64,000 nucleotides of DNA from Fusobacterium varium (GTDB lineage Bacteria; Fusobacteriota; Fusobacteriia; Fusobacteriales; Fusobacteriaceae). A program made the position numbers and the translations under genes. Location: positions 2,914,001 through 2,978,000 of the forward strand of contig AP017968.1 in assembly GCA_002356455.1 (NCBI GenBank), in the 5' to 3' direction. Positions within the stretch are counted from its first letter, which is position 1, and every line of letters starts with the position of its first letter. Shown here one piece after another: positions 39,005-54,744 of the stretch. Below the pieces are notes generated by a model. That model made no database searches. It was not told the origin of the DNA and worked only from the letters and a program-made list of their open reading frames with translations.

Positions 39005-42000
39005 TTAAAACTTATATCCTATTCCTGCTCCTACTATCCATTCACCTTTAGTCTTATTCTTTCCAGATTGATTATATGAATCTCTTTCTACTGCATAGTT
39101 TCCCTTTACATCAAAAAGTATTCCATTTTCCAGTTCAAGTGCATATTTAGCATTCAATCCTAAGCTATGTTCATTTTTATGAGCAACTAATATATCAAAG
39201 TCGCTTCCACCTTTAAATCTTCCTGTAATATATTCTTCATCAGCTCCATCAAGTATTTTAGTATAGCTTATCCCTGCTGACAGTGTACTTTTACCTTTTT
39301 CATGAGGAATAACTTTTTTAAGGTCTGCCCCTACTTTTCCAACTGTATAATTAAACGATTTAGAATCAGTTTCTATAGCAAGAGCCTCGCTTCCTTCATT
39401 AGCTCCATCTTGATCTATGTATGTATATGATAGAGTTGCATAAGGTTCTAAGAATAGGTTCTCTCCAATATTATGAGAATATCTTCCATTCAGATAAATA
39501 TCATAAGTTATATCATTGTAGTTGTCAGAATATTTCATCACTGGAGATGCTTGACTTGATGCTACTTTATTTATTGCCATTCTGTCAGCATCATAATATC
39601 CATACTGGAATCCTGCTCCTGCTGTTACTTTTAGATTTCCTACATATTTTTTAGCATAAGCTCCCAGATACAATGTACTTCCATCTACTTTTGACCCATT
39701 AGACATATCAGATTTTAATTTATTTCCACCAATTATCACTCCAGAAGTAAGTGTGTCAGATACTCCGTATTCTCCTAGCATATATGCCCCAGTTATCTTT
39801 GTATCTGCATCCATATCAGAACTTCCTATATCATAAGTATAATATCCTTTTCCATAATATATATCTTTAGTTCCGCCATCTACATGAGTAAGTCCGCCAT
39901 ATATCATCCATTTTCCTGTATTGGCTTTAAATTGATTATCAGTCACAATATCTCTAAACATTCCTGCTGATTTTCTTGATAGTTCAGAACTGTATGAGTA
40001 AGGACTTCCTGCATAGATGTTATTCAAATATTCTATGAATGTTACTAGCTGTTCATCACTTTTGATATTAAAGTTTCCTATTAAATCATTAACTGAACTA
40101 ATTCCATGATAAATTTCATTGAGTCCTTTGTATTTAAGAATTTCAGGAATACTCCATCTAAGTACAAGTACTACTTCATTTGAATTTGCTCCAGCTTTTA
40201 TTGTATGAACTTTTGATGTAATATCAAGAGTCTCATTATCTCCCGGTACTATACTATCTTCTAAATTTATGTTTCCAAAAGTTATTATCTCTGTACCATT
40301 TGCTCCATCAAGATCTAACAACATTTTTCCACCAGTTGATGAAACTGTGATTCCTGAATCAAATAGAGCATGTCCTTTTATTTTTCCACTATCTAAATCA
40401 TTTTTATCAAGAGTTAAAAGAAGCTCTCCATCTTTTTCTAATACTATGTTATTTGTTCCAGTTATTGATAAATCACTGGCAAAAGTTACCTTTGTACCTA
40501 CATTTATATTTTCAAAATTAGATATATTGTGTGAAATATTTATACTATCTTCCATATTATCTTCTGTAATTGAAGCCGGACTAGTAACTAAGTTTGTCCT
40601 AAAAGTAAGAGTGTCAGTACCATCTCCACCATTAAGAGTTGCATTAACAATACTTCCTGCTCCTATTGTCAGTTCATCATTTCCATCTTGCATGTCTATA
40701 TCTTGAACTATAATTGATTTTTCTCCTAGTGTAAGTACATCTTTATTAGCAGTAAAAGTTACCTTTCCATTAAAATATACCTCTGATCCTCCTGTAAGAT
40801 TAACTCCATTTGTTCCCATATCTATATCTCCATTGATATAGACCTTATTTCCCAATATAATTTCATTGTTTCCATCACCTAAATCTATCTTCCCGTTTAT
40901 AGTGACATTATCTCCTGATGTGAAAGTATCTTTTCCATCTCCGCCTTCCACATCTCCATTGATGGTAGTATTATTTCCTGCTGTAATAGCATTTGTTCCA
41001 TCTTTCTATCTATACTTCCATTGACTACAGTATTTTTAAGTACTAGTGTATCAGTTTTACTGCTGTCATTACTTCCTAATATAGCAAAGGTATCAGCTTT
41101 TATCCCGCCATTTACTGTTGTATTTGTTAGAGTAAGGCTTCCACCATTTGTGCTATCAAATTCAACTGTTGTTCCATAAGCATTGATTATTGCATTTGAT
41201 AGACTGTTGCCGCTATTATCTCCTACAACTTTAAGAGTATTCTCTATTCCATTTAGAATAACCTTGTCTGTTGTAGCTTTTCCATCACTTATTGGACCAT
41301 TAATACCTGAAGCATCAGTATTATCATAAGCAATATTACTATATAATGCTCCATCTTTTATTCCAAAACTTTTTATTCCTGTTACAGCAGCACCACTAGA
41401 ACTGCTGGCTATAGTTGCTTCTACATTTCTAATAGTGTATTTAATTTCTCCAATAGTTACATCCTCATATGTGTTTCCAAAATTTCCATTCTTAGTAGCA
41501 GAACCATCTGTATTAACAATATCATAATTCTTATAGCCACCACTGCCATCAGCTGTAAAAGCTAGTCCATGGTTTTTTATTTTATTATTACCACCAGCAT
41601 CATCATAAGCAACTATTGATAAGTTGCTATTTACTACACCCCCAGCACTATCACCAGATATAAGAAGTCCATAGTTATTCGCTTCATTCATTGTTCCTGT
41701 ACTTTTTATTGCATTAGCCTTTCCATAAATAGCCCCTGTATTCAGCATATTTTTTATACTATTAGAAGTCTCATCATTTATAGCATTAGTCTCCCCAGAG
41801 ATTACTCCATTATTTACCAGATTTGTTATAACTCCTTCATCAGAATTAACTATCCCACTATTTGTTCCATGAATTACCCCACTGTTTTTCAGAGTTGTTA
41901 TCCCTTTATTAGAAGTATTACTACTATTATAAATTCCATTTCCTCTTTTTTCTGGTGTTATTAAACCTGTATTTATTAGTTCTCCTATATTTCCACCATT

Positions 42001-42621
42001 AACATTATAAATTCCAGTAGCTCCAGCATTACTTCCATCTCCTGTTATTAAACCATTATTTACTAGTCTTTCTATACTACCCCTATTATTTGCAATTCCA
42101 TACCCTGCATGCCCAGATTTTGGTCCTGTTATTAAACCATTATTTTTTATAGTTCCTGTTATAGTTCCTTTATTTGAAATACCATAGCTGCTTCCATAGG
42201 GTTCACTTCCTACTCCAATTATTAAACCAGTATTTGTTATATCTTTTACTATACTTGGTGATAAAATCATTATTCCATAACCAGACTTACTACTACCCCC
42301 ACTAGTTCCACTTATCGTTCCCTTATTTATAATATTTACTCCTGCAGCATTAACATTTATTCCACTACCTTCTCCATCTGCAGTTGTTCCAGATATTGTA
42401 GTGTTGTTTGTATAAGTTGTTGATTCTTCATCCCATATGTTTTCAGTATAGTCTTTACTGAATTTTATTCCACCAGTATCTTGAGTTATTTCTAATCCTG
42501 ATACATCTCCCCCCAGTACTGCTGTACAAGATAGAAGCATTCCCACTACTGCTCTTATCGTTATGTTTTTTCCCCTCTTTTTGTTCCCGCTTTTTACAGC
42601 CTTCATAATTTTTTCTATCAT
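39005..42621 (-). pseudogene. autotransporter adhesin-like protein, split by a frameshift
   Basis: A type V autotransporter of about 1,200 residues. The start ATG follows AGGAGG and opens a long basic signal peptide (MIEKIMKAVKSGN, then TIRAVVGMLLSCTAVLGG). The passenger is built of NxGxI/TG-type repeats (such as INKGTISG, NNGLITG and NTGLITP) and then glycine/aspartate beta-helix turns (LGDGNNEIILGNKV). The last 280 or so residues form a beta-barrel ending in GAGIGYKF with the terminal Phe needed for assembly. Near 41000-41006 the frame shifts: the first frame runs on only about 35 codons to a stop at 40897, while the other frame carries DGTNAITAGNN in perfect continuity. One base seems lost. 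As given, no barrel would be joined to the passenger. Confidence 0.85.
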
Positions 42622-42739
42622 CTTTTCCCTCCTCAAAATATGAACACATATTTTAACCTTATATAAATTCAAAAAAAATTCCAAACCTTGATTTTTAAAC
42701 ATTTTATGAACTTAAAATAGTATTTTGTTACTGTTCGTA

Positions 42740-42767
42740 ATTATATACAAGTGCGAACAGTAGTCAA
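42740..42767 (-). promoter_or_regulatory. autotransporter promoter overlapping a 19-bp repeat arm
   Basis: On the minus strand, TTGACT (42762-42767) and consensus TATAAT (42740-42745) spaced by 16 bases. The spacer and most of the -10 box are the left arm of the inverted repeat. It would give a leader of about 110 bases before the autotransporter start. Confidence 0.65.
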
Positions 42768-42919
42768 TTTATTAATTTTAAAGAATGTTTTAAAATATAA
42801 AACATTGACTTTTTTGAGAAAATAATATATCATTTATTACGTAAGTATAGTGCATTAAATTATGAGTTAAAGAAATTTTTGGTATAAGCAAAATTGTAAG
42901 TGTTCGCACTTGTATATAA
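42741..42919. repeat. perfect 19-bp inverted repeat around a 141-bp segment
   Basis: TTATATACAAGTGCGAACA (42741-42759) and its exact complement TGTTCGCACTTGTATATAA (42901-42919) enclose an AT-rich segment with a second promoter-like sequence (TTGACT 42805, TATCAT 42828, 17 apart) pointing away from the autotransporter. The left arm is also within ACTGTTCG..CGAACAGT (8-bp arms). The layout fits an invertible promoter or paired operators. Confidence 0.7.
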
Positions 42920-42948
42920 AAGTGTCCATTTCAAATGTCTCTTAAACA

Positions 42949-42986
42949 CAAAAATCCTCAATAAATTTATACTGAGGATTTTTTTA
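42949..42986 (+). terminator. terminator-like hairpin on the plus strand
   Basis: AAAATCCTCA..TGAGGATTTTTTT with an inner ATAAATTTAT stem. No plus-strand gene is upstream, so it would end only a transcript from the inverted-repeat region. Confidence 0.65.
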
Positions 42987-43023
42987 ATGAGAAAAGTTTT
43001 TTGATTTTTCAATGTTTTTTATA

Positions 43024-45962: not shown

Positions 45963-47400
45963 ATAAAAAAAGCTGAGTAACATTTAAAAAAAATGTTTTA
46001 CTCAGCTCTCTTTTTTGTATAATATAGTTACCACCCTAATTATACAAAGGAGACATTCATGCAAATCAAACATATTATCTCTAAAGTCAATATAACAAAT
46101 CTTTTAGGTAAAATCAAGAAATATTTTAAAAATGAACATTTTGAGGATGTTAAACAGACTATTCAAAAATTCTTAGCTTGTTCTATTGATAAATCTTTTC
46201 TCTCTCTTCAATGCCCTAAGTGTCATGAGGCGCATAAAATTAAAGTTACTTATAAATCTAGATTTTGTCCTTCCTGTGGTAAACGTTATTCTGCTGTTTG
46301 AACTGAAAAAACTTCCACTTCTCTTATTGATGTTAAACATAGAAGTGTCCTTTTTACTATTCCTGAAGAACTTAGAATGTTTTTCTTCTATGATAGAGAC
46401 CTTTTAACTAAGCTTGCTTATGCTGTTAATGATGTTTTTAAATATCAATTTCATAACATTAAAGCAAAAAATCAAAGAATTCATAAAATTTCAAAATATT
46501 CCTCTAAATACTTTACTAACTCAGATATCATTCATTATGGATTGATTACTGTTATTCATACCTTTGGGCGCGATCTTAAATGGAACCCTCATATTCATGC
46601 TATTGTTACTTTAGGTGGATTCAATAAAAACTTCCAATTTCTTGAAAAAAAATATTTTCATGTCAATTCCATTGCTGGACAATGGAAAAAAATGGTTATT
46701 GATATTGTTAAATCTGGAAATTATGACAAGCCTGAAATTAAAGCTAAAGCTTATGCTGCTGCTAACTACCTTTATCGCAAAAATACAAGATTCTTTTTCA
46801 ATGTTGCAAAAAATGATTTAAATAATAATATTTATGCAATTAAATATATTGGCAGATATCTGTCAAGAGCTCCTATCGCAGAATATAAAATTGTTGATTT
46901 CTATGATAATAAGGTTACTTTCTATTATGAAAGTCTTGCTGATGATAAACAAAGAATTGAGCTTACTTTAGATGTGGAAACATTTCTTTCCAAATTAATT
47001 ATTCGCATTCCCCCTAAACATTTCAAAATGATTAGGCGCTTTGGAATCTATTCTAGAAATATTAAATCAGAACTTAAAAACATCATGAAATTCATGAGAA
47101 AATATGTCTCTAAATATTCCAATTCTACTTTTTATCAACTTGAAATATGGAACGCTTTTGGAGTAAATCCTTTTTATTGTTTTAAATGTAATGCCAGAAT
47201 GAAAGTTAAAAAAATATCATATTTTAATATACATACAGGCTCCATTTGCTGGAAAGAATATCGCTAAACAGCTGATTAACAATCAGCTTTTTTGTGCTGT
47301 CAATTTTAATCTTATTCAATTAATATATCTAATATGAATACAAAATAATTAACATTTTTTATTTTTTCAACAAATTTATCAAATTATAATTTCCTAAGAA
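45963..47400 (+). mobile_element. IS91-like rolling-circle element, copy 1 of a tandem pair
   Basis: A 1,438-base unit directly followed by an almost identical second unit. It opens with a strong hairpin (AAGCTGAGTAA..TTACTCAGCT plus T-tract), then a TATAAT box and the transposase gene, and ends with an AGCTGATT-AACA-AATCAGCT hairpin. There are no terminal inverted repeats. The 10-base word ATAAAAAAAG stands at the left of each copy and again after copy 2. Confidence 0.85.
46059..47267 (+). pseudogene. IS91-family transposase with internal UGA, copy 1
   Basis: A 402-codon frame interrupted only by TGA at 46299-46301. The N-terminal zinc finger (CPKCHEAHK..FCPSCGKRYSAV) is followed by the stop, then TEKTSTSLIDVKHRSVLFTIPEEL continues in the same frame. 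The catalytic HUH motif is in WNPHIHAIVTLGG, and the tyrosine region is YIGRYLSRAPIAEY. IS91 relatives normally have Trp at the UGA position. In this copy a zinc-finger Cys is Tyr (KVTYKSRF) and a usually conserved His is Arg (IIRIPPKHF), so it is probably the less active copy. AAAGGAG precedes the ATG. Confidence 0.85.
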
Positions 47401-48838
47401 ATAAAAAAAGCTGAGTAACATTTAAAAAAAATGTTTTACTCAGCTCTCTTTTTTGTATAATATAGTTACCACCCTAATTATACAAAGGAGACATTCATGC
47501 AAATCAAACATATTATCTCTAAAGTCAATATAACAAATCTTTTAGGTAAAATCAAGAAATATTTTAAAAATGAACATTTTGAGGATGTTAAACAGACTAT
47601 TCAAAAATTCTTAGCTTGTTCTATTGATAAATCTTTTCTCTCTCTTCAATGCCCTAAGTGTCATGAGGCGCATAAAATTAAAGTTACTTGTAAATCTAGA
47701 TTTTGTCCTTCCTGTGGTAAACGTTATTCTGCTGTTTGAACTGAAAAAACTTCCACTTCTCTTATTGATGTTAAACATAGAAGTGTCCTTTTTACTATTC
47801 CTGAAGAACTTAGAATGTTTTTCTTCTATGATAGAGACCTTTTAACTAAGCTTGCTTATGCTGTTAATGATGTTTTTAAATATCAATTTCATAACATTAA
47901 AGCAAAAAATCAAAGAATTCATAAAATTTCAAAATATTCCTCTAAATACTTTACTAACTCAGATATCATTCATTATGGATTGATTACTGTTATTCATACC
48001 TTTGGGCGCGATCTTAAATGGAACCCTCATATTCATGCTATTGTTACTTTAGGTGGATTCAATAAAAACTTCCAATTTCTTGAAAAAAAATATTTTCATG
48101 TCAATTCCATTGCTGGACAATGGAAAAAAATGGTTATTGATATTGTTAAATCTGGAAATTATGACAAGCCTGAAATTAAAGCTAAAGCTTATGCTGCTGC
48201 TAACTACCTTTATCGCAAAAATACAAGATTCTTTTTCAATGTTGCAAAAAATGATTTAAATAATAATATTTATGCAATTAAATATATTGGCAGATATCTG
48301 TCAAGAGCTCCTATCGCAGAATATAAAATTGTTGATTTCTATGATAATAAGGTTACTTTCTATTATGAAAGTCTTGCTGATGATAAACAAAGAATTGAGC
48401 TTACTTTAGATGTGGAAACATTTCTTTCCAAATTAATTATTCACATTCCCCCTAAACATTTCAAAATGATTAGGCGCTTTGGAATCTATTCTAGAAATAT
48501 TAAATCAGAACTTAAAAACATCATGAAATTCATGAGAAAATATGTCTCTAAATATTCCAATTCTACTTTTTATCAACTTGAAATATGGAACGCTTTTGGA
48601 GTAAATCCTTTTTATTGTTTTAAATGTAATGCCAGAATGAAAGTTAAAAAAATATCATATTTTAATATACATACAGGCTCCATTTGCTGGAAAGAATATC
48701 GCTAAACAGCTGATTAACAATCAGCTTTTTTGTGCTGTCAATTTTAATCTTATTCAATTAATATATCTAATATGAATACAAAATAATTAACATTTTTTAT
48801 TTTTTCAACAAATTTATCAAATTATAATTTCCTAAGAA
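47401..48838 (+). mobile_element. IS91-like rolling-circle element, copy 2 of a tandem pair
   Basis: The same 1,438-base unit as copy 1, head to tail with no spacer. I find two base differences, at 46252/47690 and 47005/48443. Head-to-tail arrays are expected when rolling-circle transposition does not end at the first terminus. The right end abuts the T-tract of the tRNA-Arg terminator. Confidence 0.85.
47497..48705 (+). pseudogene. IS91-family transposase with internal UGA, copy 2
   Basis: Same architecture as copy 1, with the UGA at 47737-47739 at the identical position. This copy keeps the expected zinc-finger Cys (KVTCKSRFCPSC) and the expected His (IIHIPPKHF), so it looks like the parental version. 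If the UGA is read through, as Trp or otherwise, the protein is full length at 402 residues; if not, only an 80-residue zinc-finger peptide and an internally started 296-residue nuclease part could be made. Confidence 0.85.
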
Positions 48839-53865: not shown

Positions 53866-54744
53866 TTGAATATAAGACATCTTAATATTTTTAAAATTGT
53901 TTGTGAAGAAATGAATTTTACTCGTGCAGCTGAAAAATTATACATGACACAACCTGCTGTATCTCATGCAATAAATGATTTAGAAGAAGAAATAGGACAT
54001 ATTCTTTTTGATCGTATATCAAAAAAAATATATTTAACTGAAATAGGAAAAATTTTTCTTAGTAAAACTCTAAGAATCTTGGAATTATATAATGATTTAG
54101 AAAATAATTTTTATAGTTCTGAAAAAGATATTCCTATACATATTGGTTCATGTATAACAATAGGTAATTTTTGGCTTCCAACTATTGTAAAGAAATTCAA
54201 AGAAATTTATACTGAAACTCCATTGAAAATAGAAATTGACAGTGCTGCTGTAATAGAAAAAATGCTTTTAGACAACAAGATAGATATTGCTCTAATTGAA
54301 GGAGGAATTCAAAATGAAAATCTTGTCAAAACACTTTTTTCTTCGTATGAAATAAGTGTAATTTGCTCTGTTAATCATCCTTTTTCTAAAAAAAAGTCTA
54401 TCTCTATTGAAGAGTTTTTAAGAGAAAACCTTCTACTAAGAGAAAAAGGAAGTGCTATAAGAGATTGTCTTGATAATACTTTAGCCAGAAAAGATATCTT
54501 TGTTGTTCCTTCATGGACAAGTGTTAACTCTCAGGCATTGATACAGGGAGTTAAAAATAATCTTGGAATAACTGTTCTTCCAGATATATTAATTACAAGT
54601 GAATTAGAAAAAAATGAACTAAAAAAGCTTTTTATTAAAGATTTAAAATTAAAAAATAATAATTATATTGTTTATCATAAAGATAAATATATTTCAAAAA
54701 CTATGTCTGCTTTTATTGAATTAATCAAAAAAATTACTTTATAA
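53866..54744 (+). CDS. LysR-family transcriptional regulator
   Basis: A 292-residue regulator. The helix-turn-helix is in MNFTRAAEKLYMTQPAVSHAINDLEEEIGH (residues 17-46) and a substrate-binding effector domain covers about 90-290. The start codon is TTG, seven bases after AAGGGAG, giving the typical opening MNIRHLNIFKIV. It is divergent from the two ChrA halves and probably controls them; the effector is unknown. A terminator follows the gene. Confidence 0.93.
   Translation: MNIRHLNIFKIVCEEMNFTRAAEKLYMTQPAVSHAINDLEEEIGHILFDRISKKIYLTEIGKIFLSKTLRILELYNDLENNFYSSEKDIPIHIGSCITIGNFWLPTIVKKFKEIYTETPLKIEIDSAAVIEKMLLDNKIDIALIEGGIQNENLVKTLFSSYEISVICSVNHPFSKKKSISIEEFLRENLLLREKGSAIRDCLDNTLARKDIFVVPSWTSVNSQALIQGVKNNLGITVLPDILITSELEKNELKKLFIKDLKLKNNNYIVYHKDKYISKTMSAFIELIKKITL

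Follow-up and report, generated by a model that had tools for sequence, protein, structure and literature searches.

Promoter inversion by a distant master invertase is already known in Bacteroides fragilis, where Mpi inverts 13 regions (PMC4747536). An invertible element ahead of an autotransporter is likewise known in uropathogenic Escherichia coli, where ipuS controls an autotransporter operon (PMC6083910). In Clostridioides difficile the tyrosine recombinase RecV acts at several unlinked switches, among them cwpV and flg (PMC5903667, PMC2784873). For the autotransporters of Fusobacterium nucleatum, phase variation has been suggested and nucleotide tracts considered as its mechanism, in work as cited in PMC6346709. 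In the literature searched, which excluded subscription titles, we found no promoter inversion in Fusobacterium; an earlier report is possible. We describe here a perfect 19-bp inverted repeat in front of an autotransporter gene of Fusobacterium varium, within a stretch of 64,000 nucleotides (contig AP017968.1, positions 2,914,001 to 2,978,000; hereafter the window). The repeat is very probably an invertible promoter (inverton) and one of a genome-wide family of about thirty near-identical switches.

The system resembles that of B. fragilis (Mpi, Tsr0667, Tsr19/BF2766) in its many short, scattered invertible promoters, which share a common site type and serve surface structures. The phylum and the sites are different, however, and the Fusobacterium targets are mainly autotransporters, with about 27 pairs of sites in one genome. 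Mpi is a serine recombinase, whereas a tyrosine enzyme is predicted in Fusobacterium; Tsr19 is a tyrosine recombinase and inverts two regions. The E. coli switches ipuS/upaE, fimS and hyxS (FimB, FimE, FimX, IpuA, IpuB) are alike in using tyrosine recombinases to flip a short segment that carries a promoter. They differ in that their repeats measure 7–16 bp, each is found at a single locus and the recombinases mostly adjoin their element; in Fusobacterium the site has 26 bp with a matched 6-bp core and recurs at dozens of loci, and the window switch has no recombinase next to it. RecV has seven sites with mostly unrelated repeats, whereas one site family is found throughout Fusobacterium. What is new is this site family and the count of its members, the rule of matched cores, and a connection with the expansion of autotransporters in Fusobacterium.

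Both arms of the repeat, on which the original prediction of a possible promoter switch was built, are exact. The window contains two perfect inverted repeats of at least 19 bp whose arms are no more than 300 bp apart, the second being a short hairpin at 54742. There were none in 20 dinucleotide shuffles, so the 19-bp repeat is not expected by chance. The functional unit exceeds the arms: the full site comprises 26 bp, reaching outward from each arm, and the 19-bp repeat is only part of it. Each site is a quasi-palindrome of two 10-bp half-sites flanking a 6-bp core, and the elements are arranged as follows.

42741–42759, plus strand: left 19-bp arm, TTATATACAAGTGCGAACA, exact
42901–42919, minus strand: right 19-bp arm, TTATATACAAGTGCGAACA, exact
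42733–42758, plus strand: left, gene-proximal 26-bp site, a putative recombination site, GTTCGTAATT-ATATAC-AAGTGCGAAC, from the site-family alignment
42743–42748, plus strand: core of the left site, ATATAC, the putative crossover region by the matched-core rule across pairs
42902–42927, minus strand: right, gene-distal 26-bp site (putative), GGACACTTTT-ATATAC-AAGTGCGAAC, with a degenerate outer half-site
42912–42917, minus strand: core of the right site, GTATAT on the plus strand and ATATAC on the minus strand
42749–42911: segment predicted to invert, about 163 bp between the cores; the homologous segment is inverted at loci L106/L202 and L207

The 19-mer itself did not lead to relatives; its two arms are the sole matches in the 4.12-Mb genome of the window (G000; a 3,965,155-bp contig and two more contigs). 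It was the 26-bp half-site pattern alone that revealed a family. Aligning the left and right segment ends gave 26-bp quasi-palindromes of the form GTTC-N18-GAAC, with the pattern GTTCKCNTTT-N6-AAANGMGAAC. About 40 such sites are present in G000, 46 in G001, 29 in G002 and 40 in G007, and the site is absent from the remaining 57 genomes of the family Fusobacteriaceae save for one weak match in G004. The reversed pattern, used as a control, was clean except for single matches in two of the 57 site-less genomes. The sites belong to the large-genome Fusobacterium of the F. varium/ulcerans type. The two-arm pattern had no match in GTDB contigs, and a single viral-catalogue contig carried it in the same orientation. 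Searches of plasmid and phage collections gave no match. A tblastn-confirmed scan of GTDB contigs for the C-terminus of the autotransporter found nothing.

Most sites are paired. Three genomes hold 67 inverted pairs, with members 141–233 bp apart, and in all 58 distinct pairs the two cores (positions 11–16) are identical, though cores vary among pairs. When partners were shuffled, matching cores averaged 8.9 with a maximum of 20. The half-sites agree far less often within pairs, the outer in only 12 and the inner in 23 of the 58. The rule also held in G001, a fourth genome not used in finding it (11/11 pairs), and in a search with half-sites only, from which the core was left out, 54 of 55 pairs matched, the odd one not being a true site. 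There are 11 core sequences in all; they are not unique to a pair, and the commonest serves 24 of 54 pairs. Strand exchange requires a matched centre and an operator does not. Judged from the sequences, the matched, pair-variable centre therefore points to a region of strand exchange rather than an operator, and the paired sites are recombination sites. A six-position core between 10-bp half-sites suits tyrosine recombinases, as in Xer-type sites.

The core rule bears directly on the alternative that the original prediction had ranked first, in which a dimeric regulator would bind the sites as operators and draw the promoter region into a loop, with no inversion. The sites are indeed quasi-palindromic, with a spacing of 169 bp, and a consensus-like −10 overlaps the left one. 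Operators need no shared variable 6-bp centre, however, yet every distinct pair has one while its half-sites differ, and segment interiors occur in both orientations between collinear flanks (below). We therefore reject looping as highly improbable. The 19-mer had also been expected to recur at many promoters if it were an ordinary regulator site; the site type does recur at many promoters, but as pairs of recombination sites.

Relatives of the locus provide both orientations. The stretch 42600–42988 recurs at about ten autotransporters of G002 with 76–80% identity, and between copies the segment is better conserved than the 5′ untranslated region (80% vs 46%). With each interior oriented by the gene that it faces, the majority of relatives point the same way and some are reversed. 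Within the window's own cluster, the interior is inverted at L106/L202 of G002 (alignment score 24.5 vs −4.5, the best of 200 shuffles being 15) and at L207 of G007 (77% over 166 bp). The cleanest case is L196 against L198 of G002, where the flanks are collinear (77–86%) and the interior inverted (87%); re-inversion between the cores raises the identity from 79% to 89%. L213 and L218 of G007 behave in the same way, with a downstream flank of 98%. Both orientations are thus known from paralogues and species, not from one culture, and the opposite orientation, which the original prediction had suggested looking for in other genomes, is seen in paralogues and not at the window locus. Together with the family and the matched cores they strongly support its claim of an invertible promoter switch.

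We note that at L049 and L050 (G002:C1:1661450 and 2753688) the segment is gone exactly from the repeat and a single site is kept, reflecting either loss by recombination or an empty form. These two loci had prompted a reading of the segment as a transposon or miniature inverted-repeat transposable element, which was dropped because the “empty” copies retain one full site. At L202 (G002:C1:3448377), predicted to be ON, a transposase-like open reading frame (ORF) lies just inside the autotransporter, and the gene is seemingly interrupted by an insertion element.

The promoters, the terminator and the target gene at the window locus are as follows.

42805–42833, plus strand: conserved promoter TTGACT-17-TATCAT, directed away from the autotransporter and predicted to drive it once inverted
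42740–42767, minus strand: promoter TTGACT-16-TATAAT, present in the window copy and not conserved among paralogues
42950–42985: hairpin and T-run distal to the right site, conserved in copies (inverted repeat 42950–42963/42970–42983)
40897–42621, minus strand: N-terminal part of the autotransporter, 574 amino acids (aa), start MIEKIMKAVKSGNKKRG conserved in paralogues, ribosome-binding site at about 42627–42634
39005–40951, minus strand: C-terminal part of the autotransporter in a different frame, with the PF03797 beta-domain

Both promoters had been located correctly by the original prediction, which took the minus-strand one to be active. That assignment is probably wrong. Across nine sequences, including eight full G002 copies, the columns of the minus-strand TTGACT (42762–42767) agree in 6, 4, 4, 8, 5 and 7, while the plus-strand TTGACT at 42805 is kept in 8–9. 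The window copy is probably OFF as sequenced, because this conserved promoter faces away from the autotransporter. The hairpin at 42950–42985, which a simple terminator scan did not flag, is predicted to halt transcripts that start at the segment promoter as it is now oriented.

We propose that a tyrosine recombinase encoded elsewhere would bind the two inverted 26-bp sites and exchange strands within the identical 6-bp cores. The segment would then flip, so that the promoter at 42805–42833 points either to the autotransporter at 42621 or away from it. After inversion the promoter is predicted to lie at about 42855–42827 on the minus strand, some 200 bases ahead of the start codon. In the sequenced state it would be directed into the terminator, with the gene predicted OFF.

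The same strong, conserved plus-strand promoter with a terminator behind it would also fit a small-RNA gene divergent from the autotransporter, the right site being part of its terminator; the distal site in G007 is a perfect hairpin, with a T-run after it. We consider this very improbable, since the region that would be transcribed is inverted in several copies, and it would leave unexplained the matched cores, the link to a recombinase and why such sites also stand at porin, capsule and HU-like genes. A short transcript in the OFF state would be compatible with the switch as well.

Promoters are a general feature of the segments. A near-consensus promoter (score of at least 11) is present in 53 of the 67 interiors, compared with 2% of shuffles. 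In most cases the interior is upstream of an autotransporter or HU-like gene. The genes faced are autotransporters, HU-like proteins near autotransporters, small outer-membrane proteins, and capsule and lipopolysaccharide genes. These names come from sequence inspection except for the proteins tested, of which one HU-like protein matched PF00216. By an automatic rule, a switch stands at 15 of the 28 medium-size autotransporters of G000 and at none of the 18 giant ones; the rule misses the window autotransporter because of its frameshift. The bacterium probably switches its many autotransporters on and off at random.

Several observations weigh against the inverton interpretation. By promoter direction, 37 copies are predicted OFF, 5 ON and 6 unclear. 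Flipping may accordingly be infrequent or heavily biased, and the calls themselves derive from promoter consensus and conservation, not from transcripts. The 151-bp family has a second consensus-like promoter that points toward the gene in the OFF state. At the window locus the right outer half-site is degenerate (GTGTCC), the target gene is frameshifted and, in the one assembly, a single orientation is seen. The window copy could therefore be decaying, and it may be less functional than its siblings. Taken further, the sites would once have been active and the window locus would now be locked, its pair a relic; the two G002 relatives that lack the segment and have one site left (L049, L050) are consistent with this. 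The window arms and cores are still exact over 19 bp, however, and the promoter is conserved, and we judge a relic unlikely. The autotransporter is split over two frames (574 and 648 aa) that switch near 41005, with no obvious repeat tract; the frame change is either a pseudogene or a sequencing error.

As the original prediction had stated, no recombinase gene lies in the window; G000 has 13 tyrosine and 6 serine recombinase matches, all of them outside C1:2914001–2978000. Its suggestion of an orphan enzyme elsewhere did yield candidates. The tyrosine recombinases of G000 include six of 189–198 aa, along with one close relative read as 322 aa, and two related 198-aa types, A and B, stand out. 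The catalytic R, K, HxxR, H and Y are all in place in the 198-aa recombinases, which, at about 200 aa, are without an N-terminal arm domain, as in the FimB/FimE-like type. Pfam assigns PF00589 to residues 11–183 of A, NCBIfam gives only weak Xer matches, and among solved structures B comes closest to XerC-like and XerA proteins. A serine invertase, prompted by the 26-bp length of the site, was dropped: G001, G002 and G007 each have one large serine recombinase (456–504 aa), and the identity covers six central positions rather than the 2-bp crossover of a serine enzyme.

Type B is encoded at 3156432 and 3237238 in G000, 358180 in G001, 2057860 in G002 and 992076 in G007. Its family (at least 75% identity) occurs solely in the four site-bearing genomes, and the site-less genomes have no relative above 57%. 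This co-occurrence with the sites makes B, a distant orphan, the likely enzyme. The smallest distance between a B copy and a pair is about 3.5 kb, for the pair at 3160572, and no copy is beside the window switch.

Recombinase A (G000 1631168 and orthologues) was our first choice and was demoted. It is 96–97% identical in G000, G002 and G007 and absent where the sites are absent. G001, however, has 46 sites and no intact A, its best intact match (77%) being B and the other broken. In addition, A lies within a segment of about 800 bp bounded by its own 20–21-bp perfect inverted repeats (AAATATCTTATATTAACCATT), which are unlike the switch sites. B is for these reasons the better candidate. In G007 the A segment (L256:5088–5881, L254:4683–5475, L255:4981–5773) runs opposite to its orientation in G000 and G002. 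With its own repeats and this reversal, A is probably a self-inverting recombinase gene. Its neighbours include lipoprotein, FadA-like and HU-like genes.

That inversion is real but carried out by another recombinase, whether A, the 189-aa relative or one of the several further integrases in the genome, is a serious possibility, though one we lean against; the 189-aa type may have a shorter relative in G009, a site-less genome. We tentatively propose, as a reading that falls a little short of an even chance, that a single orphan enzyme, B, acts as master invertase for about 30 promoter switches in each genome. These would take in more than half of the medium-size autotransporters as well as HU-like, porin and capsule genes. 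The paralogue A would invert its own gene, which would place the capacity to switch under a switch of its own.

The same small gene set, consisting of a replication-protein-like ORF (about 290 aa), a DnaC-like ORF (about 272 aa) and small ORFs (97–105 aa), precedes many switch-controlled autotransporters (L042–L050, L107 and loci of G000), and looks as if a mobile element once spread adhesin genes. At L048:4291–4752 of G002 the switch is separated from its autotransporter by an IS200-like transposase ORF. The window also contains, at 46059–47267 and 47497–48705, a pair of ORFs (80 and 296 aa) that occurs twice with the same sizes and spacing. The 296-aa protein of the first pair is a Y2_Tnp-type transposase (PF04986), and the arrangement is probably a tandem duplication of an insertion sequence.

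If B is the master invertase, the switches would form the first promoter-inversion regulon to be described in Fusobacteriota and one of the largest known for a tyrosine recombinase. The site pattern and the candidate enzymes make this directly testable. F. varium Fv113-g1 has a 3.96-Mb genome with two plasmids and 44 autotransporters, few of which are well expressed in culture (PMC5720691). Genome-wide switches would explain this low expression and would mean that clonal populations hold many surface variants. Adhesion or immune studies of these gut bacteria that use a single culture may thus sample one of many phase states.
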